From NCBI GenBank assembly GCA_037903355.1, contig JBAJFE010000001.1:620001-684000 (forward strand): 64,000 bases of DNA, written 5' to 3'. The translations under genes were made by a program, and so were the position numbers. The stretch is from Trichuris trichiura (lineage: Eukaryota > Nematoda > Enoplea > Trichinellida > Trichuridae). Numbering within the stretch: the first letter of the stretch is position 1; every line of letters starts with the position of its first letter. The notes below the pieces were generated by a model that did no database searches, had not been told where the DNA came from, and worked only from the letters and a program-made list of their open reading frames with translations. Below are positions 1,454 through 60,577 of this stretch, piece after piece.

Positions 1454-1517
1454 ATTGGATGCACGTAATGTAAAAGTTTTATTACGGAAGTATTCCCGAT
1501 TAATGTGCTAAATAACT

Positions 1518-1555
1518 CCGGAGCTTTCGGGTCGACCGAGACCCGTCTTCAGCGG
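1518..1555 (-). ncRNA. Hammerhead ribozyme motif (HHR 1)
   Basis: Read on the minus strand: stem I CCG, core CUGAAGA, one extra C, stem II GGGUC/GACCC, GAAA, palindrome AGCU, then C as residue H17 and stem I CGG. All core residues fit the type I hammerhead consensus; the extra C after A9 is the only oddity. Predicted cleavage is after the C that follows AGCU. Confidence 0.7.
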
Positions 1556-1565
1556 TTGTGAATTA

Positions 1566-1603
1566 CCGCTGAAGACGGGTCTCGGTCGACCCGAAAGCTC
1601 CGG
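1566..1603 (+). ncRNA. Hammerhead ribozyme motif (HHR 2)
   Basis: Inverted partner of HHR 1 in the same palindrome. Core CUGAAGA at 1569-1575, stem II GGGUC/GACCC, GAAA at 1593-1596, AGCU, cleavage expected before CGG at 1601. Confidence 0.72.
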
Positions 1604-1702
1604 AGTTATTTAGCACATTAAACGGGAATACTTCCGTAATAAAACTTCTGCATTATGAAAACATACGCTCCCGTACCAAGAAACCACATTGGATGCACGT
1701 AA

Positions 1703-3237
1703 CATGCATAAAACTTTCCCCTGAAAAATGAAAGCGTATCTACTCTACAATAATGCCATTTAATCTGTGCGTGATCAGGTTTTTTCTGAAGAGTAAAATG
1801 CAGCATTTAAATAAAACATGGCAAACTTGCAACTTTGATAATCAGGAATGTTTTTAATGAGCGTATGAGAGGGAATGGAGTTGACATCCGCTCCTAACCA
1901 CTCAGTAGATAATTAACGGCCTCGCATGAGCGCATTGTGGACATTTTTATAGGTGAGCATCGACCAAAAGCAGTTCGAATACGACTGCTTTCTCTATGGA
2001 TGTGGATGAAAAGCTAGCGCGTCTTTAACCTGTCTGCAGCCTCTTCTTTTTCTCGGTTCCTTACACAGCTGACGATGCCGATGTTAGGTGATACCACACC
2101 GTTGTCACTTTGCGTTTTCAGAGATTTTCGATTTCTCTTAAAATTTTTTCAGTTCATAGGCAGTTTACTAGACCAGTCTTTTATTCCTGCATTGGCGCTG
2201 GTAACTCTTTAACAAACAAATTCTTCGGGTCCTGTAAAATAGAACCCCGGAAAATGATCACGCACGATGCGATTGCGTAATGTTGTGCAATCAAGGTCAG
2301 CCCGCGTAACAGCATTGGGGTTAATCCTATTAGCGGTGACGCCTTATTCATGGAGTAGAAACCTCCTTGTATAGCGTGCACAATGCCCACTGCAACCGTG
2401 AACACCTGCGGTCGCACTGTTGCCAGAAATGTTGTCAAATAAAAAGGCAAGCGAGAACTATAGAGGCACCATTGTGTCTACCTCGTCCGTCGCTACCGCT
2501 GTCCAAGAAGCACTCTTCCCGACGATGCAGTTCCTGCAAGACGGTGGACTGCTTCTCCGTGCGAAGAACTGCACCTGCGGGAACCTAACGGCCCTGTCGG
2601 TGCAAGACGGCGGCTGAGCTCCTCGCTTTTTCGGTGTACAAACGCATATTAGAAAAACCAGTACGGCGCACAGTCCGCCTGTTCCGGAACTAAAAATATC
2701 AGCCTGTCTCTACAGTCAGCCTGTCACCCGAATTATTCATAGTTCAAGCAGCTGTTGCTCATTTCTGGTGTGCATTAATCGAAAATTAGCCAAAACATTT
2801 TCTGTAGGTCGCCTGAGCCTAAACCAAAAGTGAACACAACTGAAACATTGGTCCTATTTTTTCTGCGTGGAACGAAAACTAGAAGTTGCCACGACGTACA
2901 GTTTTGCCCGCTACTGCGATCACTTGTTGACCACGCAGACTACGCACAGTCAGCTCGGTCTATATGTTAAAACAAAGGAGTTCGATATGCACAGCACAAT
3001 ACGCCCGAAACAGTTCAATGGCCTCTTATCCGCGACGTACAGTCCGCCTGTTCTTCAGTGTTGGATAAGCACAATGCGTACAGTCAGCTAGGTCTGGACG
3101 GTAAAACAAACCCACCTAATGAGCAGTCTGCGCGGTCGAATAGAGCCCAAACGGTTGAATGGTTTCTTACTCCGTGCGTGCACAGGTCATCAGTAACTTG
3201 ATTATCAATCACTACAATGTCGTGACATTATGGTAGG
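1703..3237. other. Unassigned DNA with an imperfect ~143-bp direct repeat
   Basis: No gene is recognised. Two related blocks at about 2893-3025 and 3036-3180 share CGACGTACAGT, CAGTCAGCTCGGTCT-like and GTAAAACAAA words in the same order, indicating an old tandem duplication. The overlapping plus-strand frames at 2367-2617 look like chance. Confidence 0.35.
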
Positions 3238-3326: not shown

Positions 3327-3620
3327 ATTTCGAAAGACAGGGTGTCTTTTAACAGGCTTAGGTTGTTTCATAGTTGGCCTTCTGGTTCACAGGTTTGGCC
3401 TGTTTGATGTATCTGTAAATAAACTTCAAAGTGCCCTACCAACGAATGGATGAGCAAATTGCTAGAGAAAATACAGAATAAACTCTACAACTACAACAAC
3501 ATATCAACAACCTAAGACCGCTGATGACGGGTCTCGAATGACCTGAAAGCTCCGGAGTTCTTCTACATATACAGAACAAACGGGAATCATCCGTAATAAA
3601 CTTCTTCATTATGAAAACTC
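3327..3620 (+). mobile_element. Penelope pLTR unit (copy C) with hammerhead motif
   Basis: The left part is an antisense copy of the subfamily seen at 48884-49086 (words AACAGGCTTAGGTTG and CCAACGAATGGATGAGC). The right part is a sense copy of another subfamily with a hammerhead motif and an ATG at 3610. It is therefore a mosaic of two related terminal repeats, as at 23220. I did not find a convincing target duplication. Confidence 0.6.
3518..3555 (+). ncRNA. Hammerhead ribozyme motif (HHR 3)
   Basis: Stem I CCG/CGG, core CUGAUGA at 3521-3527, stem II GGGUC/GACCU (outer G-U wobble), GAAA, AGCU, H17 = C. Confidence 0.68.
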
Positions 3621-3899: not shown

Positions 3900-4085
3900 A
3901 CAACCATCATCGCTGAAGACGGGACAAGGTTGGTACCGAAAGCTCTGAACATGTAACATCGTTCTGAATTTTTCTTAATAACTGCTCATCCATCCGTTGG
4001 TAAGATATTTGCTTTGGTTATTTCAGGAACCAACAACGAGCAAGACAGAAAGCCGTAGAAAAACTTTATCAGGTCATAAACAGCA
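3900..4085 (+). mobile_element. Penelope pLTR fragment (copy D) with hammerhead motif
   Basis: A single sense arm: hammerhead motif at 3910-3948, then the conserved hairpin region TGCTCATCCATCCGTTGG and the AAGCCGTAG word that precedes the ATG in other copies. The short frame after it is not preserved. Confidence 0.6.
3910..3948 (+). ncRNA. Hammerhead ribozyme motif (HHR 4), stem II weakened
   Basis: Core CUGAAGA at 3913-3919, stem II GGGAC/GUACC with one mismatch, GAAA, AGCU, H17 = C. Stem I is UCG/UGA, different from copies 1-3 but still pairing. Confidence 0.55.
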
Positions 4086-10920: not shown

Positions 10921-12269
<1,349 letters not shown>

Positions 12270-12524: not shown

Positions 12525-12850
12525 TCAATCGTGACAATGGAGTGGCAGTTAGCGAAGTAAGGAATGCGCTAATTAATAAATTCCAGTACTGCGCCTTAAT
12601 GAGCTAACTCACACCCATTGTTCACATTTGCATATTTGAACCACCTTACCGAATAAACACTTCCCTTATACCGTTGACGACGGAACAAGAGCAGTTCCAA
12701 AACGTTCGGTAACGAATTGTTCTGTATTATTCTCTAACAATTTGCCCATCCAATCGGTTGTTGGGCATTTTGAACTTTACTTACAGATACATCAAACAGG
12801 CCAAAGTCATAAAGGAAGATCAACTATGAACCAGTAGGCATTCACAAAAC
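12525..12850 (+). mobile_element. Penelope pLTR unit (copy E), full sense copy with promoter-like region
   Basis: A sense copy running from GACAATGGAGTGGCAG through ATTAATAAATTCCAG, CACCCATTGTT and ACCTTACCGAATAAACAC to a degenerate hammerhead motif. It continues through the TTTGCCCATCCAATCGGTTG hairpin region to ATCAACTATGAACC. It aligns throughout with 48740-49060, so it defines the region upstream of the ribozyme. The initial frame after the ATG is lost. Confidence 0.65.
12670..12712 (+). ncRNA. Degenerate hammerhead motif (HHR 5)
   Basis: Stem I UACCG/CGGUA, core UUGACGA (C3 changed to U), stem II GGAAC/GUUCC intact, AAAA in place of GAAA, ACGU palindrome, H17 = U. Two core changes probably make it inactive. 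Confidence 0.5.
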
Positions 12851-14711: not shown

Positions 14712-14932
<221 letters not shown>

Positions 14933-19499: not shown

Positions 19500-20330
19500 T
19501 TTATCAACTGATTGTAGACTGCTGAGTTCATGACCGTGAAGATATTACTGCATGCATAACTCCAGCCACCCATTTGGTCGAGTTAAACAGGTGGAAATCA
19601 CGGGCTCACACTCGGTCTCCCTCCTGGAAAGTTTGGGGCTTTTGAGTTCCTTCTGCATCCAGGTTAACAGCATTCTCCTGCTGTATTATTACGGACGCGT
19701 CCAAAGAGTCCGGATGCAAGTTATCTAATAGCAACTTCGGGCGTCGTCAGATGAGTATCTCGGCTGGCGAAAGGACAACCGCCGAATGAGGCGTCAATCT
19801 GTAGTTAAACAGGAACCGACTGAGTGATTCCCCATTTATTCGGTGTCATCGCCCCCTAAGGGCTTGTTTTGTTGTTTGCAAAACTCGTTCAACCAAACCA
19901 TTAGAGGACAGGCGGTAAGGCAACCCTATCGACTTGACCATAATTTCTTTCAGCTTTCGTCGTCGTCTGTGATCCATAAGCTACCACTTTTTCTTGGCCA
20001 TCTTCAACTAGCACCTCCCCTAGTCCGTATGCTGAGGCGTCACATGATAAGACAAGCGGTTTGGATCCGTCAGAGTGGGCTAGTATTGAGTCTGCGGTTA
20101 ACAAACGTTTAGCCGTTTCGAATACGTCCTGTTCCATTTCTCGCCAGTGCCATCTTGAACTTGCTGTCGCGTCAAGAAGCCGGTGCAGTGGCTCAAGCAC
20201 AGTCGCCTTCCTCGGTAGGAAAACCGAAAAAAATTGAGCAGTCCCAAAAAACCTTATAATTGCTTCACATTCTTCGGCGGGGACGCCTTTCTGATCACCT
20301 TCAGTTTTTGCTCTGCTCACCTATGGAGGT
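19500..20330 (-). pseudogene. Ty3/Gypsy pol remnant 2 (RNase H fused by deletion to integrase end)
   Basis: On the minus strand, 20320-19905 reads the RT thumb and RNase H (FFGTAQFFSVFLPRKATVLEPLHRLL is one recognisable block; VLSCDASAYGLGEVL holds the RNase H Asp). It then passes directly at about 19905, in another frame, into the integrase C-terminal region (SNGLVERVLQTTKQALRG, FLFNYRLTPHSAVVLSPAEIL), ending near 19500 with DFHLFNSTKWVAGV. Several hundred residues that normally lie between are missing, so this is an internally deleted copy with stops. Confidence 0.8.
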
Positions 20331-43000: not shown

Positions 43001-46000
43001 GACACTTTACAAAACACGAGGATTTGGGGTCTGTAAGTAGGCGTGCTTGAAAATATTGTTCAGTGCGCTATTAGCATTACCTCCAGTTTTTCGTATGAAC
43101 TGGCCCTTCCTCAAGCGTTCTGAGAGCATAGGAAGCTGCTGAGAGGCGAAGGCCACGAATACCATCACCCCATTCTTTCTCTGCTCTAAAAGTAATTTCT
43201 TTCAAGTGCCAGAGTCCTTCTGCAAAATAAAAGAACCAACCCTCTGTATTCAATGTATTTATAGGCGATCGCGCCGATAAAGAAAGCTACAATTGAAAAT
43301 AACCAATGGCTCATGAACATTACTGCCATACAAAGAGCAGCGCCAAACATTGATAGCGTCCTAAACAAATGTACAAATTACATTTTCAACAGAAAGTTTG
43401 CTGCTAATTTACCAGTGGTAGAAACGAAACCTAGGTCGCCAGCTCGGCGCTTTTAAAATGCTTTGCAGAGCACAAGCAGCGTTGACGCTCATGTAACACA
43501 TTAAAAAGAATCTGCAATACTTAAGCTGTCAGACGCAGTTACGCAAAAGAACCTTCTTAACTGGCTAATTAGCGCTGTTATACTTTCCAGGAAGGCAATC
43601 AGAATGCAGCACTCGCATATGCAAGTACTTAAAAGAATAGCTCTAAGCGGTTCACCACGAGAAGTTGTCTTCTGAAAAGGGCGAAGTATTGGAATGACCT
43701 CATCTGAAGCAATAGCTTGCAGAAGTCGAGGCGCTCCTTCAAAACACGAACAGATTTTACGTTCTTTAATACATTATCTCTTTAAATGTTGCTTACCTGT
43801 TAAGCATTGCATTCCAGCACCAGCACTTGCCATAAATGAACCAATAATAATCACCATTGGATGAGGAACGGCAAGTTCAGCGACTGCCAGGCGACCGTAA
43901 GCACCAGCTCCAAATTTATCTCTCAGAAAAACATCATTTATGGCAGCACCAAAGCATAAAACACCAAGTAAGTCTGTAACTATATCCTTTACAGCGAAAA
44001 TTCACATAATTTTACTTACAGGCACAGGAAGTAATCAACTGGGCAGCCAGCGTCCCAATAGGTATTGAGCGTGAAGCGTCTTTTAGGTTACCTGACCTGT
44101 TTGAACCCTGCATTATTCCTAGAAAAGTAAATGCCAGTTCGCTTCTCCGCGAAAATCATTCCTTCTCGTTTAAAGAGATATAGCATGATGTAGTTCCTTT
44201 CGTCTATTGTCTCTTAAGCCTATCAGGCGCAAACAAGTCTCATAGTCAGCGCATACCTGTTACTGATGGAAAAAATACTCCAATGAGAATTGTGAAACTG
44301 GTTGCCATGTCGGCTGTTACGAAGCTTTCTGCTGCTTCAGATTTATTGTCATATCCTTTCTCCTCGATGCTCAAGTTGGCAGAAATTATGTCCCCAGCAT
44401 CCAGATACTTTGGGAAAATGTTGGCTGTAATGAAAGGATTAAAATTCATTTAGTTACTGACTAAAGTAGTTGGCACCTTTAATTATACCACTTGTAGCGC
44501 CCTCTATAGCCCGCAGTTGGCGTATTGTGTTGTTTTGTAAAGCTTTAAGGAAGTATGGGTCACATGTTGAATCCATGCTGACATTTAAACAATATAAATG
44601 CCGTAAATCAGTCGCATTGCACGCCAAGTAGTGTCCAGGATGGTGATCAATCCATTTCTGCAAGTCAGGTACTCGATCCCCTACCATGCAAAATCTGAAA
44701 ATTATTGTCAAATGTAATGGTGCTATGAATTCATTCAGAAATTAGGAATTTAAACAGTTCCGTATTCGTATGTTATTATTTTTATATTAAATTTTTTTCC
44801 CACTTCTTGTATACTGTGCAGAAATGTTTCAGCTGTTTTGGCTGTAGTTCCTATTTTCTTTTGATTTTGTTTTCCGCATAACATGTAGTCATGCAGAACT
44901 TTGTCTATCATCTTATGTGAGAACAGGCTACAGGTTCACTGGGATTCTGAATGTTTTTTTATCATCAAGTATCGCTAACCTCGTCCATCCATGAAGAACA
45001 ATTGGATTGCAAAAGAAAAAGTTAGCTTCAGCCGGCTAGCTGGGCACAAGTGCATTACGGAAAACTTCAGAAGCTAAAAAGAAATGTAGAGACAAAAAAT
45101 CGAAACGATACAGCAAATAAACCAGTCATAAAATGATCATAACTTGTGATGTTACGAGCTATTTATGCGTTGTACTTTAATGCCTGCCATAGCTAACTTT
45201 TGTTAGCAAACACTGATACTAAAAATATGAGTCATATGAGCTATGAAACAGTTATTGAGCAACAACGTAGCCTCCCTACTGCTTCAGCTGCCTTGGTTTA
45301 TTCATAATCTGCTATTTTTTGTCCTGTTTTCATTTTAATTCTTATTGAATAATGTGATTAGTTCTCCTTGATCGTACCTTCTTGAAGAATTTAAGGATGA
45401 ATTAACAAAATGCACTCTTGAGATTCCATGAGATAAAGTTGGCACAGAAGGTACGTTGAAACTATCACAACATTACATCACAAAATAGAAGGGTCTGTAC
45501 ATTAATCACCGCTTGAGTAACACCTTGTGTGTCGTTATCAGTCTGTTAAACCTGTCTTTTAGGCCATCTTTCAGAAAGTTTGTTTCTAGCTTAGACTTAA
45601 TCGAACATTCCGCTGTGGAATTCATTATGGGTTCCACTGAACAGGATAGTGCATACCACGAAAAGGACAAAAGAAAACTGAGCCGAAATGTTTCGCTTGC
45701 TTCGATTAATAAAAACAGCCATAAAAGATAATGAAAAAACTTTATTACGGATCGGTTCCCGTTTATGTATATAAAAGAGACTCCGGAGCTTTTGGGTCAT
45801 TCAAGACCCGTCATCAGCGGTCTAAAGTAAGGACCGCTGATGACAGGTCTCGAATGACCCGAAAGCTCCGGAGTCTCTTTTATATACATAAACGGGAACC
45901 GATCCGTAATAAAGTTTTTTCATTATGAAAATATATGGTCCCGTACCAAGACATCACGTTTTCAGCCATAAAAGATTGCTAAATTTATTACTAGCCCGAA

Positions 46001-48308
46001 AAAGTAAAGCTAAAATACTAGTATTAATAGTAGTCTTGCATCGTTTACTGCAGGGGTGGGGAACGTCCGGCCCGCGAGACCATTTTCCGTCCACGCGCTG
46101 GGGAAACCCCGCATGGATGCGAGATTCAGTGAAATGTGATTGTGGGAGGTCATTTTTCATAACGCGATAAACGTATTGTATGTGAATCCTAGTAAAAAGA
46201 TAAATCTTGCGTAACAAGCAGGGAGTGTCATACTGGCTCAGATGACTGCGTTGCTGACAGCTCTCTGTCGACAAGCCGACATTGTTAATCCTCGGTGACA
46301 AGCAGTAGGCGCAACTACAGTGTGTGTGCGCGCGTAAGTAGTGTGGACCATTGCTTTGTTCGAGATAACGACTGTCCAGCTTGCTAGAGCACTTCTGCTT
46401 TTTTTGCTTTCAGTAGTCACTGGCATCGTTCTCGTCGGTTTGCACCGGCTGCTTGTCCTTTACGTTTTCGAAGTACAAAAAGGTTATTTCGTTCTCTGTA
46501 GTTGCGCTTATGTTCTTGACAACTGGGTTGCAGAATTGTCTCAAAATTCTGCCTTTTATCTCAGAGTTGCCTCACCAAGGAAAAGCAGTTCTAAGCATCT
46601 TATTAGGGGTGAGTTAATAAACATACGTGCAAATAAAGCAGACTGTTTTTCGTTTAAGTATGCTATACGGCCCGCGGCACCAAAAGGGTTCCCCCCTGGT
46701 TTACTGGCAGAATAAGGACGACGAATCAACTGCATCCCGAAGCTCCGTCATTCTTCATAGTAAATAAAACAGGGCAAATGTGCTCAAACGTAGTTTAGAA
46801 TGAAGATTCGTACACCCGTTACATGGCATCCTCTAATTGCTTGCATTGAAAACTGTCATATTCTTAAAAATTGCATGTGAACATAAACATTCTATCTTTT
46901 AACTAACACTAGGGTAATGTGTACATATGTAATATGTACTGTTAAGCTACCTTTAAAAATGTCAAGCGTTCTAAGTCATCTGAGATAACTGGCACAGGCG
47001 CTGGTGTCCCATGAACAATACTATAGCTCTGCTGTCAGTCAACTTGGTAAGTTAAGGTAGCCGTAACTCCTTTTCACCTAAGCATCTCCGTTTTAACACC
47101 AGTGAGCATGTGCCGAAGGGATTGGTGGAATCAAAGTAAAAACTAGTAAAACCTTTTCTCAAAGTTGGTTTTACTTTAAATTGGTTAAAGTGATCAAATC
47201 GGTTTTTCGTTTTTCTAATGGAAGCTAATGCCGTTTAATGACACTTTCTATCCTTAATTTGAAACGTAATCCAGTTCAGCGATCACCTGTTACACGCTTT
47301 ACTGGATACTGCTGTACAACTTAAACTAGCTGTTATGTGGATGGTTAGCATGAGAAAGCACGAGTTAAGCTATACCCTAACTAACATTTGTGCCTACTGA
47401 AAAGTCAGTTAATTATCCTTCGTTCAAACCAATAAATCACTATCGACTGATTGATTTGCAAACAAAATTTGTTTAAAAATGGAACATTTTAATCTAATTC
47501 TTGCTGGTTGTTACCACTTGCGTTAAAATTCTGCAGCGTCGATGAAAAGGACAGAAACTAGTTACTGACTAAAGTTAAGCAAAAATCAGATTAGCATGCG
47601 TTGGAACTCACTTTAACGAATCAGACCCATTGATATTGACAAAAAAACCAATGATTGTTAGCAGAATGCACAAATTGACTAACGCTATTGTGGGTAAAGC
47701 GAACTTGTTGACCACGCTGACACCAGACACCACGATGCAAGATATAACAGCCAGAAGCAACGAGGCAAATAAACGATAGCAGTGGTAAATGTCGTCAAAA
47801 ATTTTTGCTTGAGGAACAGCGTATAACTGGAAAAGTAGTTGTAATAATCTAGATGGTTTCCGCGACAACCTACTAGAAATATCTCTGCCGAACCTGTAGA
47901 AGCAAGTACATATTTTTATGCCTGTAGCTGACAATTCACTTACCTAAAATGTACATTGAAGCAGCAATTGTCGATGCCAAATAGAATAAAATTCCAACAG
48001 CGCCACCGAGTTCTGGGCCCAGGTTACGAGAAATCATGTAATATGGGCCTCCAGCAGGTACCATTCCATTTGTTGCTATCGCGCTGAGAGAGATCGAAGT
48101 AGTGAAAGTCTGAAACAGCGATCGATTAAAGGCAGTTCAATATTGCACCTCTGGTTTATACCACTAGACAGCAGATTAGTGTAATGAGGAAAGCTTCGAG
48201 CAAGCCAGCTGTGCCGACCATCCAAGCAAGACGAATAAAAAATAGCACACCAAAGATATTTTGCACGCATGGCATAAAGACGCCAACAAAGGTGCCCATC
48301 CTTACCGG
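35447..48308 (-). CDS. kcc: Potassium-chloride cotransporter (SLC12/KCC family), N-terminus not found
   Basis: Electroneutral K+-Cl- symporter of the plasma membrane. Exons: 48308-48162, 48109-47944, 47893-47874 (20 nt), 47826-47612, 44694-44477, 44424-44257, 44118-44020, 43973-43797, 43736-43553, 43511-43413, 43360-43241, 43185-43081, 43030-42939, 42889-42810, 42745-42657, 42601-42473, 42424-42361, 42311-42093, 42032-41931, 35941-35840, 35782-35596, 35538-35447. All phases close: 957 residues. Family signatures: [19 protein letters not shown] (TM1), [20 protein letters not shown], a glycosylated loop (NAT, NVS, NNT, NLS sites), [73 protein letters not shown], and the KCC-type end REVVTIFS. 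Usual family length is near 1,050-1,100, so roughly 100 N-terminal residues are missing. Introns are 41-138 nt except two (2.9 and 6.0 kb) loaded with transposons. The least certain exon is 35941-35840, whose residues match no close family block. Confidence 0.93.
36986..37031. repeat. (TA)n microsatellite
   Basis: About 20 TA units inside the large KCC intron, next to a Penelope unit. Confidence 0.95.
37040..37511 (+). mobile_element. Penelope pLTR unit (copy K) in a KCC intron
   Basis: An antisense arm (TCTTCTACGGCTTTTCCCG), a sense degenerate hammerhead at 37144-37180 (CUGACGA at 37147, GAAA, GCU, stem I UCA/UGA), then sense-arm sequence with an internal partial duplication (37184-37320 and 37330-37500) sharing GATATCTGTAC, GGCTCATCCATCCG and CCTTACAACCATGAAA. 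Ends with [13 protein letters not shown] at an ATATAT target. A short inverted copy of the end follows at 37511-37555. Confidence 0.7.
37560..37842 (+). pseudogene. Unidentified coding-like remnant in a KCC intron
   Basis: A plus-strand frame reads [20 protein letters not shown] then [10 protein letters not shown]. With one frameshift near 37684 it continues through [18 protein letters not shown] and [21 protein letters not shown] to a stop at 37834. Composition looks like real protein rather than chance, but I do not recognise the family. It could be a retrocopy or a captured exon. Confidence 0.3.
37970..40264 (-). mobile_element. Tigger/pogo transposon (copy 1) in a KCC intron
   Basis: Inverted ends CAGTTGAACCTCCGTAAATT (left) and, reversed from the right, CAGTGGAAGTTCCAAAGTTG, each flanked by TA (37968-37969 and 40265-40266), the target duplication of this superfamily. 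2295 bp, same transcriptional strand as KCC. Contains the transposase remnant listed next. Confidence 0.88.
38164..39774 (-). pseudogene. Tigger/pogo transposase, broken
   Basis: DDE transposase with a CENP-B-type DNA-binding region. From the N-terminus: helix-turn-helix [13 protein letters not shown]...[13 protein letters not shown] (39774-39560), a CENP-B linker remnant in other frames (39540-39320), and the catalytic domain [14 protein letters not shown]...[18 protein letters not shown]...[19 protein letters not shown] (39313-39035), where the usual NADE is changed to NASK. A degraded DDE core follows to 38880. The C-terminal acidic tail has [19 protein letters not shown] and ends QTKIDTFF, a PCNA-binding (PIP) box as known from pogo-type transposases. 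Loss of the catalytic acid and several stops make it inactive. Confidence 0.85.
40396..40438 (+). ncRNA. Hammerhead ribozyme motif (HHR 9), best stem I
   Basis: 5-bp stem I UUACG (40396-40400) with CGUAA (40434-40438), core CUGAUGA 40401-40407, extra C, stem II GGGUC 40409-40413 with GACCC 40421-40425, GAAA 40426-40429, palindrome AGCU, H17 = U at 40433. Every core position is intact. It sits in the large KCC intron, antisense to the gene, with only short pLTR sequence after it. Confidence 0.75.
40560..41640 (+). mobile_element. mariner transposon, transposase nearly intact
   Basis: Tc1/mariner element antisense to KCC in its last large intron. N-terminal helix-turn-helix region at 40640-40850 ([22 protein letters not shown], then [17 protein letters not shown]). 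One frameshift lies near 40970. The catalytic domain follows with [11 protein letters not shown] (Asp codon at 40984), [11 protein letters not shown] (Asp codon 41266) and DPSDFFLF (Asp codon 41371). The last two Asp are 35 residues apart, the DD34D mariner spacing. A TAG at 41347 replaces the Tyr of the usual HPPYSPDL. The frame ends at about 41560. Inverted ends were not clearly defined. Confidence 0.85.
45783..45820 (-). ncRNA. Hammerhead ribozyme motif (HHR 10), GAAA altered
   Basis: CUGAUGA, stem II GGGUC/GACCC, AAAA in place of GAAA, AGCU, H17 = C, stem I CCG/CGG. Confidence 0.6.
45834..45871 (+). ncRNA. Hammerhead ribozyme motif (HHR 11)
   Basis: CUGAUGA at 45837-45843, stem II AGGUC/GACCC (outer mismatch), GAAA, AGCU, H17 = C, stem I CCG/CGG. 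Confidence 0.65.
46051..46698 (+). mobile_element. Non-autonomous hAT element, 648 bp, in a KCC intron
   Basis: Starts CAGGGGTGGGGAACGTCCGG and ends GGTTCCCCCCTG (imperfect inverted ends), with a perfect 8-bp duplication GTTTACTG at 46043-46050 and 46699-46706. The CAGGGGTGGG...GGCCCGC terminus is a classic hAT end. The 124-codon plus frame inside is probably not a functional gene. Confidence 0.9.
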
Positions 48309-48499
48309 CTGTAAAGTTAGAGCTGAGAAGACAATGAATCTTTACCCCTTTAATGCTCATTTAGTTACTTCACTTGTTTCATAGTTGATCTTCTGGTTAA
48401 CGGGTTTGGCCTGTTTGATGTATCTGTAAGTGAACTTCAAAGTGCCCGACCAACGAATAGATGAGCAAATTGTAAGAGAAAATACAGAACAATTTCTAT

Positions 48500-48540
48500 A
48501 CCGTACGTTTCGGAACTGCTCTTGTTCCGTCGTCAGCAGT
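48500..48540 (-). ncRNA. Hammerhead ribozyme motif (HHR 12), subfamily 3, intact
   Basis: Minus strand: stem I ACUG/CGGU, core CUGACGA, extra C, stem II GGAAC/GUUCC, GAAA, palindrome ACGU, H17 = A. All core residues conserved with a stem II unlike the other subfamilies. Confidence 0.75.
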
Positions 48541-48883
48541 GTGAGAGAGAAGGTGCTTATTCGGTAAGGGGGGTAAATAGCACATGGGAGCAATGGGTGT
48601 TTGATTAGTTGGGTAGGGTGCAGCATTGTAATTTATTAATCAGCGTAGCCCATAAATAATTATTTGCCGCGAGACCCTGTTACACCTAAATCGTATTAAG
48701 GAGGCTCTCTACATCCAGAGCAACTCCACTATTAATCGCGACAATGGTGTGGCGGTTAGTGAAGTATGGGCTGCGCTGATTAATAAATTCCAATGCTGCA
48801 CCCTACTCAAGTAATCGAACACCCATTGTTCCCATGTGCTATGCTATATAACCTCTTTACCGAATAAACACCTTCTCCCTCAC

Positions 48884-48924
48884 ACTGCTGACGACGGAAC
48901 AAGAGCAGTTCCAAAACGTACGGT
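48884..48924 (+). ncRNA. Hammerhead motif (HHR 13), GAAA altered
   Basis: Core CUGACGA 48888-48894, stem II GGAAC/GUUCC, AAAA for GAAA, ACGU, CGGU. Confidence 0.6.
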
Positions 48925-49086
48925 ATAGAAATTGTTCTGTATTTTTTCTTACAATTTGCTCATCCATTCGTTGGCAGGGCACTTTGAAGTTTGCTTACAG
49001 ATACATCAAATAGGCCAAACCCGTGAATCAGAAGATCAACTATGAAACAACCTAAGCCTGTTAAAAGACATTCCATCTTTCGAAAT

Positions 49087-52000
49087 ATTTCACTTGTTGA
49101 TGATAAGATAATGAAAGAGTTGCAACAGATGTACTTTGGTCGCTTCATTCCTTTCTTCCGTCTCAGCACTGCCAAGGGGCATAGGACTGTACAAGGACAG
49201 ACGACGTATGAATTGAGAAACTTTGATTCCGGGGGGGAGACCGTCTTCCTGAAAGGCAATCCTTAGTAGTAACAAAACTGAGGTTTTGGAAACAGTTTAG
49301 TTCGCACCTCAGTGAAAGAAAGACTTGTTCGTCTCGTTCCTTCTTCATCATTTCTTCCTTCTTCATTCAAAAGAATTTGTGTCGTATATCCTTCAACAAA
49401 CCGTACTTTCATATTGCTATTGCGACGGAAACGAAGGAAAGCTATTCATTTCGACAGCATTGTGGCAGTGCAATAAGCTGTGAAGGGAAAACACAAGACA
49501 AAATTGATGTCACTGTTGCGTTACGAAAACTTAACGCAGAACGTTTGATCAATTTAACGGTCCTGTTAGTGGCAGCGCCGCTCATGTCGCATAGAGAACA
49601 CAAACTCACCAACTGCATCTTAATCAAAACCTCGTGATGCGAAAAATAGCATTGAACGATGTGCACCATAGGAAGGAACAGAGAATATCTCACGGTTTTT
49701 TCACTTCATTAATTTTACTTGCTGCTCACGGCATATTTGTATTGAAAGTTAATACCATGGGCCTTTTCTTCCTCCGTCACTTTATTAAGAATATGATGAA
49801 ATTGGGGGGGGGGCATGAAATGACGAGGAATGGGCTTGTCAATAATGTGTCCTACTTTATTTTAAATGGAACGAGGGTCCAAGACTGAATGAAATGTCTA
49901 TTTTACGCAATCTTGAAGGTACAACGAAGCGCATATTTTAAGTAACTGAAATAATTAGAATGGACTGAAAGTGGCCATAGCTAGTCACGTCAAAGAATTC
50001 GGCTTTGATGTCTGCATCTGAGGTCATATGCCTTTCGCTTTGAATCCACAGAAAGTTTCAAAATATTCCGTACTTAAAACTGCATTCTGACAATGAATAT
50101 TTGCCCTTACGGCCCGGGAAAAGCATGGTCACTAGATTCTTTTAGAAAAAATTACGACTTGCGAGAATATCTCAGCTTTGTATGAAGGAGCAAATTGGAT
50201 AAGCTGTTTGCTGATGCACAACCTAAGTGCGGAAGCTCAACCCGTGGAAACGTTTTATTTTGCGAAGCTTTCAGAAAGCCAGCCACTACAGGTCCCCCGC
50301 TCTGCCATTCTTCTTGGGCTGAAGATGTGTGCACAATTTTTCTAATAGCTCTGCAAAATAAAGGTTTTCACGGGTCGAACTTCACTACTTAGATTATGCA
50401 TTTACGAGTGCCCATTAGGAAGAGTTTCATTTTCAAAACAATGAACTGCTTGTTCGCACGATTGGTTCTTAAGTTTGTATTGCTCATTCCCGCTGAGTGA
50501 TTCCCATCTGATGAAGATAAATTTACAAGATCAAATCGTTTTGAAGAAAGCATCGTTCACGGGGTGTCCCTGCTGGCTGCTGTTCGATTTCGACGTTCAT
50601 GACAGGGCAACAGCTGCTGAAGCGTAAGGAATCCTAGCGTCTAGAACTGGTTAGATTTTGTTTGGCGCCAGTAACAACTAAGAGCTCAACAAGAGGAAAG
50701 GGGCGTCTTAAACATTGGCTCGTACGAGAAAGATATGTCAACTTTTCAGGCTTTCTAGTAGTTCTGGCCACCCACATTTTCTAAAAAACAGTCCCATCCG
50801 AAATTTTCTAGCGTTACCGTGGTAAAATAAATGAGGAGTTAAAAAGCAGGAAATAGCTACGACGATAAACGTGATGTGCTCAAACATTTGCTATTATCAC
50901 GCAACAGCGATAGGGACTTCTCAAATGTTATTGATTAAGTATTTGGTAAATGACAATCAGTGGTTCTTTAGTATTCGCATGCAATATGCTGAAAAACAAC
51001 CTATAACACGTAAGCTTTGCTGGGACAGTTAAAGGCAGCACGCAGTCGACTACTTCCATATGTTGTCATTATAGCTTACACCGCTTTCCAAAAACATTCT
51101 GGAGCAGCAAAACTCCATGCCTGGTTAAGCGGAAGTTACTTGAACTTACCCTCCATTTTTTCCTGTGATGGAATTTCACTGCACGTAGCGTTATAAAATC
51201 AATAATGGGTGTTCCAGGGTGACTGTAATATATGACGCTGCGCACTTGACGTAACTGCGCAACAAGCCTGTGTTTCAAACTGTGAGGAAAACGCTAGACG
51301 AACCTGTTCTTGCAGTGGCTTTTCTTCACATTTTCTTAGCAATGCAGCAGAAGTGCATCTGTTTGAGAGTCTGAATGGCTGTTTGATAAAGAATTCGACT
51401 GATAGGGTCAATGTCAGTGAAACTCCTATAACTCGCCTTTCTGAAAACCATTCGCTAATGAGTCTTATTAGCGGTAATGCATCAATGATTATTGTGAGTT
51501 CCCATAAACAAGATTGCACGCCATCCAATCACAATGTTTCTATTTCCGTTATAGTCTAAGATTTCTAGTTTTGAAGCAGTGAGCCCAGAGTCATTCCTCA
51601 GTCTAGCGATTGCGTTGACTGAACATTCCCTTGCCAATTAGTCCCATTCAAAGTCAATAAACGACTGTGAAAAGAAGTTGGCAATTGAAATAGAATTGTT
51701 ACTTTTTATTTCCAACAAATTACATTAATTCGCTGCAAAACCTAATTCATAAAGTTGGCTATCAAAACCCAGGCTCATAGAAATGACAATCTGGCGGATT
51801 GCGGGCACCATGAGTGCTCAGACGCCTGGTTTCCGTAGCACCCGAAGAGGTTGCGAACTAAAACAGAAAGAAACCATTCTCATGGCCAATCAGAAGGGAG
51901 CATGCTATTTCTGTTCACTAGAGATTACATTAACCAGATCAGTTCCCCGTTAAGAGTCAACGCAGGTAATTCACTTTAGCATTCACATTAGACTTCTTTT

Positions 52001-53896
52001 CGTAATTTCATGTGCCCTTACAGTTAATTACAACTGAAGCTATTTACGAAAACGTCAAAGTCTGAGACTCTTCCTACTTTCCGGGAACTTATTGCTTCCG
52101 TAAAGACGACATATAAGCAGCAATGAGAGTGTTGTTGAAGCCTGTTGAGCAGCAGGCAGTAATGCCCTACGCATGTCAACGCTTTAATGATCATGGCTTC
52201 AGCGTAAGGGAATAAATGCTAAAAGAATTTCTTGGTCAACTGTTCACTTTGTAGTCAAGCCTAAAACGAAGATTTGCTAGATTTCAATCGGACGTCTCTG
52301 CATGCGTGCCTGCTTCAGCACGCTGGAAGTGCCTAAATTTTAGCTTATCTTCTGATGTCGGCCAGTAGAATTTCTTTCCCAACGAACTAAAATGACCGCG
52401 CCCGATATATCTGTTCACATTCATAGTCTATTCAATTTTGATTTCCACCTCATTAACCTTCAAACCAAAAGTAAGCACGTACATAACAAGTGCTACTATG
52501 GTGACATTACGCTATCCTGCAAAGTTTCAAAGAAGCTTGTTTCCATGCATATAATAGTTTGCTTAAATTAGTCTATTCGCGGAAGTGATTTAGCAGAGTA
52601 GTCAGAAAACACGCATTCATTAATCAAATCGTCTTTCTCTTGGAGGGCAGAGTTCAATGGTATGCATGCTGATTCACACTATATGCCAGTTTGGACCAAG
52701 TATAAATATCTCATGAGCATCTTTTGAGAATGAGAAGAGTCATGATTCCCTCTACTTAGTTATAACCTGATATCACTGCCGAATGGAGTTAATAGTTCGT
52801 CAATTTTGTTTATATTGAGTTTCCGCTTGAAACAGCTTGTTCTCATTTCTAAACAGCGTCTATAAGTATTCGATAGGCGCTAACCGACAGCTAAACGGTC
52901 ATTTGTTAGCAAAGCAAAGATACTGTTCGTTGAACTTTTGTTGCTGTAAGAATTTCGGAACTGAGATGCACATTTCTGAACATTATATGTGCTCTCAGAT
53001 GAGCATAATATCTTTAAGTGTTTACTAACTTATCTAAGACTCTATCCATTTAACGACCATTAATTTGTTTTCATCATGTAAAGCGATTTGCTATCGTACT
53101 GCCACTGATGACAGAAAAAACATCTCTCATAGCTATGGCTTTAAAAGGCTTCAATAAACGACTTTGCCCTGCACGAGTACTACGAAGACAATAGATTTTA
53201 CAGACAAGAACAAATCATCAATGGAACGCATCTAAGACTAGATTTATATCTGTTTTCACCATCTGCATGCTGCCTTTCTATAGCGAATTACATTAACCAC
53301 AAACCAGTGTCATTTAGATTAGAATGAAATTAATTTAGACGTAAAGTGTCTTGTGATGGCTGCGTCAGTTATCATCTTCGAACATATTGCACCTCGTTTG
53401 ACCTATTTTACCTGTCGTCAAGAAACACTGATTTTTCAGGATGCAGCTTGTCTGAACGACAGGATAAGCTGCATCGCAAAAGCCCTAACACTCTTGGCAG
53501 CAGGGCAAACGTAACGCAGGGTGTTAGAAAATTTAATGAAAAGCTTAGACATTCCTCCAAAACGAAGATGGATAACTAATTTCTGCAGCCAGACTAGCAA
53601 ACAAAAATTAAGCTTCATGACACACCAATTAGAAGCATTCACTCTGGCAGTTTGCCAATACCATTAATGCTCAGAGCATCTAGAACATTGCACCTGGTAC
53701 ACGTGCCTACGCGCCTGTTTTGCTGAAATAGCGCCTTTCATCATAAAAAGATTAATAAATAAGTTGGACAGCTTTCATGACCAAGATCGCTCTCTGTCTT
53801 CAAATGAGGTGAGCAGATGACGCGTTTTTGGTCCAGCTAAGTAGATTCTCACTGTGAAGCAGTCATAAATAACGTTAATATTAATAAAACTATCTT
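49087..53896. other. Unassigned DNA upstream of the visible KCC exons
   Basis: No domain-bearing frame found on either strand. Missing N-terminal KCC exons could be here but are too short for me to identify. The frames at 49377-49637, 49634-49888 and 51199-51528 have no recognisable motif. Confidence 0.4.
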
Positions 53897-53954
53897 TCAT
53901 GTCGAGTTTCTTTTAAGGAAAGTTTGTCCCGTTGACAATATTTTTATTATTATT

Positions 53955-53992
53955 CCGGAGCTTTCGGGTCAAACGAGACCCGTCTTCAGCGG
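53955..53992 (-). ncRNA. Hammerhead ribozyme motif (HHR 14)
   Basis: CCG, CUGAAGA, C, GGGUC/GACCC, GAAA, AGCU, H17 = C, CGG; complete consensus. Confidence 0.72.
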
Positions 53993-54077
53993 TATTAATA
54001 TAAAGCAATGAAGTAACGAAAATTCACGGTGTTCAGAACACCGTGAATTTTCGTTACTTCATTGCTTTATATTAATA

Positions 54078-54115
54078 CCGCTGAAGACGGGTCTCGTTTG
54101 ACCCGAAAGCTCCGG
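54078..54115 (+). ncRNA. Hammerhead ribozyme motif (HHR 15)
   Basis: Inverted partner of HHR 14, core CUGAAGA at 54081-54087; complete consensus. Confidence 0.72.
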
Positions 54116-54637
54116 AATAATAATAAAAATATTGTCAACGGGACAAACTTTCCGTAAAAGAAACTCGACATGAAGACAAAGCTCATGCCATTTAAGCATG
54201 AAAAAACGCAAACGCCATAGGTCATCACCGCTAACGTATCAGACAGGAAATCTACCAATTATAAAATAGGAAAACCTAGAAACTGAAAACAACCTTGATC
54301 TTCATTTTTTGTCATGCCCAGGAACATATTAATATGAACAGCGCAACTGAATTCTTTTAACCACGGCGTCCTAATAGAAAATCAATTGCAACGATTCTGC
54401 GGCATCTTGTTTTCCATTCTACTGGCTTTATCCCAATAGAGCGGCTGCCAGTCAGACCTACTTGAAAGGACTGCCGTGAAAATTTTCCAGTAATGGCTTA
54501 TTGCTGAAAGTGGCAGCGCACCCCTAATAAATCGATTGCTAAGAGCCTTATCGCTCCGATTGCGTTGAGCAGTACGGCATGATCAAATTAAGAATTCAAA
54601 TTTCTTGTGAGCATGGAAGGGATGAGAACATGTGATT

Positions 54638-55179
54638 AGAAGAGATGTACATGGATTTTTCCCGTTTTGCATTTGCCCATAAAACGAGTCAAAAAAGTGA
54701 AAAAGCTTTAATGTCGTTCAAGGGCATAAAAACCAAACAAAATTCTGGCGAAGCTTTCGGCTCAATCTTGAGCCGTCATCAGCGCACGCAGGAGTTGCCC
54801 TCCCACCAAGTTTTTCCTCAGGAGTAGCTCCTCCACCTTTCCGAGTCGTGTGCGTGCCTGTCTAGTCGAACCTTGACCTGTCGAGGCTATACACACACGG
54901 CTGGATCAGCTTCGGAGCAACTTCCTTACAGGCTGTCCTCGGCGGAGGCACAACGCGCAATAGGATGGTCAGTCAATGTTAGGTGAGTCGTCCTGCCAGA
55001 ATAGGTCAAGATTGAGCCGAAAGCTTCGCCAAACTTTTGTTTGGTTCTTATGCCCCTGAACGACATTAAAGCTTTTTCAATTTTTTGACTCGTTTTATGG
55101 GCAAATGCAAAACGGGAAAAATCCATGTACATCTCTTCTATGACAACCAAACCCGTTACAGACCACACACCTGTATACC
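54638..55179 (+). mobile_element. Inverted Penelope pLTR unit (copy P)
   Basis: 542 bp between perfect 15-bp duplications TGAGAACATGTGATT (54623-54637 and 55180-55194). Inverted arms share GTACATGGATTTTTCCCG, AAAACGAGTCAAA and GGCGAAGCTTTCGGCTCAAT. The sense arm ends with an ATG frame related to the M-K-x-PV pattern (MTTKPVTDHTPVY). Same subfamily as the outer unit at 34087. Confidence 0.82.
54748..54785 (-). ncRNA. Hammerhead ribozyme motif (HHR 16), subfamily 2, intact
   Basis: Minus strand: stem I GCG/CGC, core CUGAUGA, extra C, stem II GGCUC/GAGCC, GAAA, AGCU, H17 = U. Both stems differ from subfamily 1 but stay complementary. The sense partner at 55010 keeps only the 3' half. Confidence 0.75.
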
Positions 55180-55194
55180 TGAGAACATGTGATT

Positions 55195-56906: not shown

Positions 56907-56914
56907 CCTTAGAT

Positions 56915-57139: not shown

Positions 57140-57383
57140 CCTTAGATACATTGAAAGCTTTAATGTAGCTTTTTTGTTACTTGTCACTGATTATAATATG
57201 TGTCTGTTATCAAAGTCTATTGGCTTCGTTTCTCAATGAGAATTCATTTGATGTATAGGCAGAACTCTTGATGCAAAAAGCGATACCCTGAACACGCAGT
57301 TCTTCATTATAAAAGGCTGATGAATTTTTGACGTATACTTTTGAATTATGATATGACCCGTTTATATTAAAACAAGTCTAGAT

Positions 57384-57422
57384 CCAAAGCTTTCAGGCTG
57401 AACCGTAACCCGTCTTCAGCGG
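57384..57422 (-). ncRNA. Hammerhead motif remnant (HHR 17)
   Basis: CCG, CUGAAGA, GGGUU with AGCCU (stem II disrupted), GAAA, GCU. Core strings remain but stem II pairs poorly. Confidence 0.4.
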
Positions 57423-57429
57423 AAAGAAC

Positions 57430-60168
57430 GTAGAAGATGAGAAGGCAATGCTAAAACTGTCTGAAATCATTTTAGGTGCAAAGGTTTATCAAAATAACAT
57501 GACGAGTTCTGGTTATGGTTACCTTAAACTTAGCTTCTCTTTAGTGGTAGGCGGGTCACCGTTGATTTTAACTGTCCAGATACCTCCACTACAAGGGACT
57601 GATGGTTTCAAAGTATGGTAACGACAGGTTACTGACCGCTTGATCAGTGACAGAAACGCTGTCAAATGCATCAGAATTGCGAAAAAATGGCGAAATTTTT
57701 TTATGTGGGCACAACAGTACCAGGGTAGTTAAATCACTGCTTTGGCTGACGTATGAGGCTAATACGTCGAACTTTTTGACACTAAGTTGCTACACTTATC
57801 TTGTGATTTTAACTTCTTTACGAAATATTGCACGTTGAATAACAGTTTGTCAAAGCTTAGTGTTCACGGGTGACCGAAATTTATGCATTATCAGTTCGGC
57901 ACCAAGCAATTATTGCATCAAGGGAACTGCATCAGGTCAGTCTGTCCTAATCGTTCTCAGTGCGAGCTGTCCTAACACAGTTCGCAGGTAAAATGCCCTC
58001 CTGTTTCTTACGGCAGCAGAATTCTTTCCGCATGCCAGAACCTCAATTGGGCTTTTAATCCATCTTTTCTTGCTGCCTTAACCGTTAGTCACATGCTCAG
58101 CGCTGGTCATCTTTGTGTTGCCTGATCTCCGCAAACCATATAGTTAGACGAAGTTTTGCAAGTTGCCTAAATGATTACTGCACTTGCGCAACCTATAGAT
58201 GGGAAATTGAAACGTCCATGAAATCTAGTTAGAGAACAGCGTCGTCGAGGAAACCTGTGGAATTTTAGCTTGCAAAAACTCTGATGCAGAGTGCCTCCTG
58301 ACTCCACGCGACGATGATAACTAACTATAGCAACTCTACGAGAAAATGAACTTACTTGTAGTAGTCTGCTGCTATGCTTGGTGGATTGCAAACGAATATA
58401 CCTAATGGATAATCTCTCATTCAGCCAAGATCTTAAGGGACTGCTGATTAGTCGTCCAGTGTTACAAAGCGTTATACTGGGCATCCTCTCATGCTACCTT
58501 AATACGCTATTTGCACAAAATTTTACCTATTTACCAGAAGGGACTACATTCACCTTAAGACTTTATTATGACAAAAGGAGCAGAACATCTAAGAGGGAAG
58601 TAATCATTCTTATCCTTAAACTTGGGACTCATGAACAGAAAATTATTCTCTAGTCTAGGAATCATTAGGTAGCTCATCACAGTTACTTTATATCCACACT
58701 GGACAAAAATTTGATGAACATGAAACAGTCTGTTTAGGAACATCAGTGTCAGTGAATTACATACGCGCGCCTCATCTATTATTACGAGCAGAAAAATAGA
58801 GCAAGACTGGCTTGTGTTTCATTAATCTCAGTTAGTAACCAGAAGCCTCCACCTGTTCAGAGCTTCTGTTACAGGAAAAAGTTCACATGACGACGATCCA
58901 GTTGATAAACTTATTTGATTAGATAATCGTCCCTGAAAGGCGTAATCGATTTTCTTGCGCAGGCTCTTGCTTAAAGATTACACATAGGGAGAGACTCCGA
59001 CTTGCTAACCCAGATGCGACAAAAAATAAATAACAATTTAAACGTGTAACTTAAATGCACTGATTGTGTGTTATCCACACAATGAGTTTTTTTGCTCAGT
59101 ACAAAAATGCAGTTTTCCTAAGAAGGCTGGTTAGCGAAGAAAGAAAGATGTCAGCTGAAAAGCAATTAGGAGAACGTTTAGTCATGATTTTCTTGCAATT
59201 GTATTGACCAAAAGTGCAGCGCTGGTTTGTTGAAAAGTTGCAATGCATGAACGGAGAAAGTAGCACTCACCTGTATTAGGGCATGCGTGAAGGTTCCATT
59301 TATCATGAGAATCAGCCAAAGATGGTGACTCATGGTTAACAGGCTCTAATGCCGCTGCTTTCATCCGCAAAACTTATCTTGTTTGTGTTGTACGTTCCAT
59401 GCTTTGATTAAGAAAGAACAACGAATCGAGTTAAGGAAACCGCAAAGGACGAGAGACCATGCGTCCAAGCATGTATGAAGGTTGATAAATATTGCCACAG
59501 CTTAATGTGTTGCGTAGGCTAATTACCAAAAGAAGATCTCAGAAGCACGCAACCTACCGGCGAGGAAATAGTTCGAATTGATCTTTTAGCCTGGTTGGTC
59601 AGGAGGATTTGAAATCTGACAGCTTGACGGCGCAACAATCGCGCATTGTTATGTTTTCCTGGCAGTCAGAAAGCATCTCTTAGTTAAACAATACCCTGAG
59701 ATGGAGTAACGAAGGTTTTCATGCACGCTACGGTTTGTGTTCAGAAACTGAATTAAAGCTGACATGCTGCAACAAACGCGCAGTTAACTTTTTCCCTGAA
59801 AGTTTCCCATGACGTAACGCGTAATTAGAAAAGCCGTTACCCAGAGCCGATGGCAGTATTTATATTTCTGACTGTTGATGCATCGAGCTTTGGTGTGGTT
59901 CGATAAAACGGCAAAGTAGGGTGGATTAACACTTACACGCAGTGAACGTGGTGCCATTATGATTAGGCTATTAGTAAGCAAGCATCTAGAAATAGTTTTA
60001 AAACACGCGTTCTGGAATTGAAGCTGGCGGTTCTGTCAGTTAAGAATGACCTTGTGAAACTAGATACTTTAGATGAAAATTTTTGAGTACGATGTTCCAA
60101 CAGCCGCGTCTACGTAACGTAGTCAGTCCACTTTTTGATACGCATTTTGGAAAACCTGCATTAAACTA
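57430..60168. other. No supported gene; one candidate exon
   Basis: The only coding-like signal is on the minus strand at 59364-59271: an ATG frame MKAAALEPVNHESPSLADSH and onward, ending at a strong donor CAG/GTGAGT. It could be a first exon of KCC or another gene, but I cannot link it. Confidence 0.3.
59271..59364 (-). CDS. Candidate first exon (unassigned)
   Basis: Open from ATG to CAG/GTGAGTG, a near-consensus donor. The 31 or so residues have no recognised motif. It lies upstream of KCC on the same strand, so an N-terminal KCC exon is possible, though the family's conserved N-terminal block is not visible. Confidence 0.22.
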
Positions 60169-60182
60169 AACGGAGTGTTCAT

Positions 60183-60577
60183 GATGGAGTTTCTTCCCTA
60201 CGGCTTTTTATTGCCCGTTGATGATTTCTGAAATAACTGAAGCAAATGCCCTACCAACGAATGGATGAGCAGTTATTAAGGAAAATTCAGAACAAAACTT
60301 AGTTTCAGAACTTTCTGGACCAACCTAGTCACGTCGTCAGCGATGATAATGTCCAATGTCACATTACCATTATCGCTAACGACAGGACAGGGTTGGTCCC
60401 GAAAACTGCGAAACTGTTAAGTTTTGTTCTCAATTTTCCTTAATAACTGCTCATCCATTCGTTAGTAGGGCTTTGCTTCAGTTATTTCAGAAATCATCAA
60501 CGGGCAATACAAAGCCGTAAGAAAGAAACTCCATCATGAAAATCAATAGACACGTTAAGAAGCATCCGTTGTTCAAC
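60183..60577 (+). mobile_element. Inverted Penelope pLTR unit (copy R)
   Basis: 395 bp between perfect 14-bp duplications AACGGAGTGTTCAT (60169-60182 and 60578-60591). Inverted arms with hammerhead motifs at 60305-60344 (minus, CUGACGA) and 60372-60412 (plus, CUAACGA), stem II GUGAC/GGUCC-like and GGAC/GGUCC-like and partly decayed. Ends with the ATG frame MKINRHVKKHPLFN. Confidence 0.82.
60305..60344 (-). ncRNA. Hammerhead motif (HHR 18), subfamily 4, partly decayed
   Basis: Core CUGACGA, stem I UCG/UGA, GAAA, AGUU in place of the palindrome, H17 = C. Stem II is weakened. Confidence 0.45.

Follow-up and report, generated by a model that had tools for sequence, protein, structure and literature searches.

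The DNA considered here, referred to as the window, is a stretch of 64,000 nt from Trichuris trichiura (C24:620001-684000). It is part of an assembly of 72.7 Mb in 62 contigs, which is the genome behind all of the counts given below. The window contains many copies of a hammerhead ribozyme (HHR) motif, several of which are arranged head-to-head in short inverted units. It is quite likely that the carriers of the motif are endonuclease-bearing Penelope-like elements (PLEs) with the motif in their pseudo-long terminal repeats (pLTRs) and, jointly with this, that the inverted units arose by Penelope insertion at a staggered cut, with reverse transcription primed from both of its sides near the start of the open reading frame (ORF).

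A mechanical scan of the window (core CTGANGA...GAAA with at most one mismatch, a stem II, a palindromic tetranucleotide, H17 other than G and a stem I of at least 3 pairs) gave 15 strong hammerhead-like sites over both strands vs 0 in each of 20 Markov shuffles. A covariance model (R1), which was trained on 56 non-redundant family members including 4 from the window, gave 22 matches below an E-value of 0.01, of which 20 also fall below 2e-5. Since R1 was trained on members of the family, window copies among them, these matches count the repeats of one family and are no independent proof of a ribozyme. Both results bear out the earlier note on this DNA, which had described more than a dozen hammerhead motifs on both strands, and all eight positions that it listed as complete cores are among the 22 R1 matches. 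The pattern that it gave holds for the core, the stems and the palindromic tetranucleotide, but omits an extra base after A9. The check that it proposed, a covariance-model search with Rfam, came out negative: no Rfam hammerhead model matched the whole window at the gathering cut-off, nor 40380-40460 or five loci at E<=10, which is the Rfam half of the outcome that the note had named as speaking against it. The Rfam hammerhead models evidently do not cover the present variant. The Rfam search of the five loci also gave microRNA matches on the palindromes, which reach at most 74.7 bits where the cut-off is 100 and were dismissed as generic hairpin matches. A scan of viral contigs for the motif gave zero matches.

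The inverted pairs that had been pointed out in the window are genuine, with arms of 91, 95, 139 and 209 nt matching at 92-99% and, in a pair near 34 kb, of 134 nt at 82%. Unit A (1469-1687) is a head-to-head pLTR insertion with HHR motifs at 1514-1558 (minus strand) and 1563-1607 (plus strand). It is flanked by a 15-bp target-site duplication (TSD), ATTGGATGCACGTAA, with the left copy at 1454-1468 and the right copy at 1688-1702. The left, short arm stops at the start of the ORF, while the right arm bears the tail and is 35 nt longer; the start codon lies about 55 nt past the predicted cleavage site. Unit B (45730-45962; motifs at 45779-45823, minus, and 45831-45875, plus) is a head-to-head pLTR insertion between two SLC12-like matches, with an arm difference of 38 nt and a 14-bp TSD (CAGCCATAAAAGAT) at 45716 and 45963. 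Unit D (48379-49088) consists of a 5'-truncated Penelope and an inverted short arm. Its motifs (48497-48542, minus; 48882-48927, plus) have the palindrome ACGT, its arms differ by 43 nt, and a 10-bp TSD (TTCACTTGTT) lies at 48369 and 49089. The 34-kb pair (34051-34821; motifs at 34192-34236, minus, and 34668-34712, plus) is head-to-head as well and belongs to another, divergent motif subfamily, in which the start codon could not be placed; its arms differ by 32 nt and a 10-bp TSD (TCGTCTTGTA) is found at 34041 and 34822. Of the 5 window pairs tested, 4 thus combine a TSD of 10-15 bp with an arm difference of 32-43 nt. The fifth, unit C (53896-54174; motifs at 53951-53995, minus, and 54075-54119, plus), is a near-perfect palindrome of 139-nt arms around a 1-nt centre. 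A solo pLTR insertion at 3494-3615 (plus strand) carries one motif (3515-3559), stops at the ORF start and has a 13-bp TSD (AACTCTACAACTA) at 3481 and 3616.

The comparison of genome copies gives good support to a type I hammerhead architecture with covariation in stems I and II. The hammerhead core CUGANGA ... GAA(A) ... UH is present in 111 unique copies, which were selected on CTGANGA, a pyrimidine plus G, GAAA, [CG][CG]T and H. Since the selection used the core, the pyrimidine and G after A9 and the [CG][CG]T before H17, only the stems, unselected save for that G, are independent evidence. Pair 3 of stem I is formed in 109/111 copies (shuffle maximum 85) and switches between C-G, G-C, U-A and A-U. 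Pairs 4 and 5 of stem II are formed in 107/111 and 101/111 copies (shuffle maxima 84 and 94) and covary, and pair 3 of stem II, formed in 105/111, is barely above its shuffle maximum of 104. On an alignment of 56 sequences, standard pairs occupy 88.9% of cells vs 78.0% in shuffles, double-change cells number 53 vs 13.2, and sliding the stem partners by 1-3 columns drops pairing to 20-50%. Stem I has three pairs only in most copies. Among the copies, selected as they were for A[CG][CG]U, the tetranucleotide between A14 and H17 is AGCU in 107/111, ACGU in 2/111 and ACCU in 2/111. Stem III does not close within one molecule, its place being taken by a self-complementary 4-nt palindrome. Since stem III is reduced to self-complementary AGCU or ACGU, a complete ribozyme would need two adjoining copies. 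At least five motif subfamilies with distinct stem I and stem II sequences coexist (L014 and L026; in the window at 34.2, 34.7, 48.5 and 54.8 kb).

Hammerhead ribozymes of Penelope-like elements are reportedly the subject of work by Cervera & de la Pena in 2014 and by Lunse, Weinberg & Breaker in 2017, and the minimal ones are said, in the latter, to act in a dimeric mode. The present motif resembles these ribozymes in its minimal type I core within pLTRs, its reduced stem III and the expected action as a dimer, but differs in an extra pyrimidine between A9 and stem II and in the 4-nt AGCU/ACGU palindrome of stem III. The canonical hammerhead has no unpaired base between A9 and stem II, and the present copies depart from it in this respect. 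The extra pyrimidine, 81 times a C and 3 times a T, is found in 84/84 strictly folded copies; the scan behind this count allowed the base to be present or absent and kept the extra-base form where both fitted. It was read in 15/15 strong window sites, though that scan also allowed none, and exact pattern matches in the genome number 1001 with the extra base vs 0 without. An extra core nucleotide, reportedly after A9, has been published for a viroid hammerhead.

The link of the hammerheads to Penelope holds up. An ORF at 21444-22106 (plus strand) is the C-terminal part of a Penelope reverse transcriptase (RT)-endonuclease in a decayed copy, and its best other genome copy is 78% identical; a Pfam search of this fragment alone gave no match. 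At least 150 genome matches to the fragment were scored, from 1792 candidates, and about 30 of those scored sit in open frames of at least 700 codons by a manual count. Three Penelope copies have open frames of 878-901 codons beside motifs. The frames of L068, L070 and L074 contain RVT_1 in 3/3 and GIY-YIG above cut-off in 1/3. The best named protein matches of L068 are Trichuris RT proteins, with 72% identity over 66% of the query in Trichuris suis and 50% over 86% in T. muris. In L070 two motifs in direct orientation, 2.9 kb apart, flank the ORF as direct pLTRs. In L068 and L069 a motif on the minus strand sits in an inverted short arm ahead of the ORF, and another on the plus strand sits at the end of the ORF or past it. 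L069 and L073 are flanked by TSDs of 11 and 14 bp and have unequal ends, one side being more than 2 kb longer than the other, and the pLTR word of the subfamily of unit A is common to both of these copies. The full copies show what is expected of Penelope, namely an ORF with RT and GIY-YIG, pLTRs, an inverted pLTR, a tail and a TSD, the last of these not being detected in L068. In one place (L011/L012, C1:806950-810290) the same target word of 9-12 bp (AGAATGAAT) occurs twice, once after the pLTR end of a short unit and once where a Penelope copy 2.9 kb away ends, as though the end of the first insertion had been the target of the second.

Mirrored motif pairs with 4-34 bases between them occur in 127 genome places vs 0 in a reversed control. 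Unit ends were analysed in two sets. Set 1 comprises 51 mirrored units with 3-60 bases between the cores, mostly the first-listed of the 127 places, plus unit A of the window; places were left out if their flanks were shorter than 180 bases or if they were identical across 60 bases to either side (e.g. L076). Set 2 comprises 14 units picked by a pLTR word downstream of the ribozyme from 19 head-to-head pairs of less than 1 kb, of which L051, already in set 1, and four others were left out. L098 is in both sets and was counted once, which gives 64 distinct units. A TSD of at least 9 bp is present in 43/51 units of set 1 (median 13 bp), 10/14 of set 2 (median 14 bp) and 52/64 distinct units; when left and right flanks of different units were combined as a control, such a TSD was found in 11/390. 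A second script gave TSDs of 8-21 bp in 12/14 word-chosen units.

The arms are unequal in all 52 units with a TSD of at least 9 bp, by 26-50 nt, and none of these units has two short or two long arms. The short arm ends between -9 and +13 of the first base of the start codon (41/43 in set 1, 10/10 in set 2; 50 distinct units), and in the same 50 units the long arm ends at +30 to +44, inside the ORF. In the other two (L038, L067) the arms are unequal and the script did not place the start codon; the difference in L038 is affected by an insertion within one arm. Start-codon and tail ends with a TSD, as expected of Penelope insertion products, are thus found in the short units. Among the first 100 listed motif places of C1, 19 of the 21 neighbour pairs of less than 1 kb are head-to-head; the one same-strand and the one tail-to-tail pair arise between neighbouring units. 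A listing by the pLTR word gave 19/20 such neighbour pairs head-to-head and 1 same-strand. A comparison of arms, which sought units with arms from different source elements, gave no more than 7 changes over 84 nt in 43/50 units and 10-31 in 7/50, the right arm of L038 with its insertion giving false small distances. Since the arms are at most 7 changes apart in 43/50 units, both complementary DNAs (cDNAs) would as a rule derive from the same RNA or the same source element.

The inner junctions are scattered over the ribozyme region. In the 14 word-chosen units one arm of L100 ends at the predicted cleavage site, ends in L090 and L091 lie 1-5 nt away from it, and the others are spread across the region. 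Stem-loop II forms the centre of L088 and L089, while L100 joins its arm to one that reaches about 50 nt upstream of the ribozyme, with an overlap of about 2 nt. An intact CTGANGA is present in both arms of 3, in one arm of 6 and in neither arm of 5 of these units, so that 11/14 lose at least one. L096 and L097 seem to have lost the second core by small later changes, which would put the counts at insertion at about 5, 4 and 5. The looser model R1 still scores some ribozyme sequence (E<0.01) in 14/14. The self-complementary parts of the ribozyme may guide the joining of the cDNAs. RNA folding of the tail region in three elements gave no reliable shared hairpin.

The hammerhead architecture and covariation, the TSDs, the unequal arms, the head-to-head orientation and the pLTR sequence that one subfamily shares with Penelope copies would be brought together by a two-sided insertion. 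The Penelope endonuclease would cut the target with a stagger of about 13 bp, and each of the two target 3' ends would prime reverse transcription inside the Penelope RNA, one at the start codon of the ORF and the other about 40 nt downstream. Both cDNAs would then run up into or through the ribozyme region, where their far ends would be joined head-to-head, often within self-complementary sequence.

Several results weigh against this account of the motif and the units. The lack of an Rfam match is a problem for the hammerhead assignment. On the alignment of 56 sequences the number of pairs with a double change is 7 vs 4.9, a level that 16/500 shuffles reach; in the 111 copies no covariation is seen for pairs 1-2 of stem I and of stem II, which are near-invariant, and stem I pairs 4-6 are formed there no more often than by chance. 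Folding was applied to one copy, that at 40401; its predicted single-strand structure pairs the extra C with G12, and 10/200 shuffles fold as well as this copy. The arm ends in the 14 word-chosen units do not cluster at the predicted cleavage site. The units are mostly first-listed places and not a random sample, 12/64 are without a TSD of at least 9 bp, and two TSD calls (L047, L064) fall in simple repeats. No TSD of the full copy L068 was found by the script. In unit C no TSD and no long tail were found, and its arms stop at the same place. In another PLE no difference in RT start site between the strands was observed (PMC11167929), so that the one-each pairing is not seen in vitro.

Other origins of the units were weighed against the two-sided insertion of Penelope. 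Palindromes could arise by self-priming, where a single template or cDNA forms a hairpin at its end and is copied from there. Many of the centres are palindromic, 2/14 (L088, L089) are centred on stem-loop II and the arms of one unit are nearly identical in 43/50, all of which fits. Copying one arm from the other predicts equal outer ends, however, and since none are seen among the TSD-bearing units, 52/52 of which have unequal arms with ends at two preferred places, this argues against self-priming. The side longer by more than 2 kb in L069 and L073 and the joining in L100 of ends about 80 nt apart with so short an overlap argue in the same direction, and self-priming is considered unlikely. 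The earlier note had suggested a non-autonomous retrozyme-like family, that is, independent units spreading in trans through small RNAs processed by the ribozyme. The number of copies, the core on both sides in the 127 mirrored places of one spacing class and the autonomous-looking Penelopes as a source of enzyme are in its favor, and PLEs have been proposed as mobilisers of animal retrozymes (PMC7761336). However, the units end at the Penelope start-codon and tail sites and have TSDs, close neighbours are head-to-head (19/21) and not in direct tandem, an intact core is in neither arm of 5/14 and in one arm of 6/14 word-chosen units, and the pLTR word of one subfamily is also in Penelope copies. 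The suggestion was dismissed on the unit ends, the orientation and the frequent loss of the intact core, and its probability is put as very low. Even less credit is given to foldback or miniature inverted-repeat transposable element (MITE)-type DNA transposons whose inverted repeats happen to include the motif. Such elements have long inverted arms with flanking TSDs, as here, but the TSD length varies (9-22 bp), the outer ends are not equal inverted repeats, the inner spacers differ between units and the arms consist of pLTR sequence from a retroelement. A MITE identity was dismissed on the variable TSD length and the unequal ends.

The closest rival leaves the Penelope origin of the units aside and concerns the motif, which may be a conserved RNA or DNA structure of hammerhead shape, without cleavage here and kept for protein binding, RT start or strand joining. 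The obligate extra pyrimidine, able to pair with G12 in the one copy folded, the missing Rfam match and arm ends away from the predicted cleavage site are consistent with this, and the ribozyme of another PLE was inactive without protein while ribozyme mutants still inserted (PMC11167929). Against it, the core and the palindrome recur across subfamilies, which would fit selection on catalysis in the parents, though the core was itself a criterion of the scans; a viroid hammerhead with an additional core nucleotide has also been published. A non-cleaving motif is possible but is judged to be the less probable case. In the hammerhead, G12 is described as the general base (PMC6155905). Given this role and the pairing of the extra C with G12 in the 40401 fold, the extra pyrimidine could act as a lock on the ribozyme. 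A fuller scheme is offered tentatively and is rather improbable as a whole: integration would be obligately two-sided, with a dimeric enzyme using each RNA start site once per insertion; stem II, AGCU and leader palindromes would serve as DNA annealing points that join the sister cDNAs; and the ribozyme would be shut by the extra pyrimidine-G12 pair until the Penelope protein opens it.

The endonuclease-bearing Penelope of Adineta vaga is a close parallel. In the cases described in PMC3846280 it has inverted pLTRs, TSDs of 8-10 bp and a 31-bp tail that is optional on one inverted pLTR. Both systems therefore have pLTRs, an adjoining inverted pLTR, TSDs, the tail and palindromes at the inverted junction. 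The Adineta elements, according to the same text, are low in copy number and have inserts with ORFs or captured genes, whereas pLTR-only palindromes are abundant here. The Adineta palindromes are explained there by self-priming on an antisense template, while the end pairing seen here (start codon vs about +40) points to two priming events. Another relative, the Poseidon PLE of Anolis (PAc; PMC11167929), is similar in that two adjoining RT start sites within its RNA determine the tail, both strands are cut and extended, the hammerhead lies near the ORF start and unprocessed RNA is the dominant substrate; the start sites, the use of both strands and the substrate speak in favor of the two-sided insertion. 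It shows no strand difference in start site in vitro, whereas the genomic units here pair the two places one-to-one, and its HHR overlaps the ORF start, while the start codon of unit A lies further downstream. Animal non-LTR retrozymes have type I hammerheads in short repeated units in common with the present ones. In PMC7229834 they are described as tandem repeats with canonical HHRs and circular RNAs, whereas the units here are head-to-head, Penelope-ended and often without an intact core. The direct tandem arrangement of a retrozyme, in which every repeat of 150-450 bp carries a ribozyme, is not that of these units.

The window has further motifs. The motif at 23267-23311 (minus strand; 64 bits) is in a pLTR fragment that adjoins another pLTR-like remnant. 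Found by both the scan and R1 are the motifs at 40395-40440 (plus), whose stem I of 5 bp is the longest of the strong scan sites; at 54744-54788 (minus), with stem II GGCTC/GAGCC and stem I GCG/CGC; at 3907-3952 (plus), with a partly decayed stem II; at 57380-57425 (minus); and at 37141-37185 (plus), which is decayed and has T as the extra base. R1 also gave decayed motifs at 60301-60346 (minus), with a weak divergent mate at 60370-60415 (plus; E=0.0012), and at 22643-22688 (plus), 0.5 kb downstream of the Penelope RT fragment, as well as a decayed HHR-like match at 12668-12713 (plus; 29 bits) and a weak one at 26036-26081 (plus; 19 bits, E=0.0044).

The window also has matches related to a host gene. 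An SLC12/AA_permease profile match at 35450-35794 (minus) scores 21.5 bits, below the Pfam cut-off of 27, and one at 47669-48115 (minus) scores 29 bits with five in-frame stops within the match. If both stretches belong to one gene, as is presumed, the minus strand may carry a cation-chloride cotransporter-like gene over 35-48 kb, with pLTR insertions of Penelope lying between the two matches. The placement of motifs inside introns of a host gene, as the earlier note had it, is plausible for 37147, 40401 and the 45.8-kb unit, all of which lie between the two matches. Other features are a pfkB/ribokinase-like exon at 11928-12269 (minus), a mariner-type transposase fragment (Transposase_1) at 40954-41349 (plus), a Tc5/pogo-type piece (HTH_Tnp_Tc5) at 62740-63138 (plus), to which an ORF at 39035-39379 (minus) is similar by eye, an RNase H-like domain of an LTR-type retrotransposon at 19901-20320 (minus) and an AC dinucleotide array at 14713-14932 with 110 copies and 99% matches.

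Penelope hammerheads, inverted pLTRs, the tail, TSDs and two RT start sites are already known. In the open-access library searched, which does not include the two main hammerhead-Penelope papers, no report was found of a strict pairing of one short with one long end, of abundant pLTR-only palindromes in any genome or of Penelope hammerheads with an obligate extra pyrimidine; for Trichuris together with hammerhead ribozymes, its only match concerns a redox enzyme. Penelope elements are relatives of telomerase whose mode of insertion is an open question, and the first active in vitro system dates from 2024 (PMC11167929). The present genome is a large natural record of both ends of Penelope insertions, with 127 mirrored places in one spacing class alone. 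The pairing of an end at the start codon with one about 40 nt further makes two-sided priming directly testable and argues against simple self-priming as the source of head-to-head palindromes. The standard RNA library misses the present hammerhead variant, and a dense set of ribozyme motifs can be the by-product of an insertion mechanism and not the mark of a ribozyme-dependent family.

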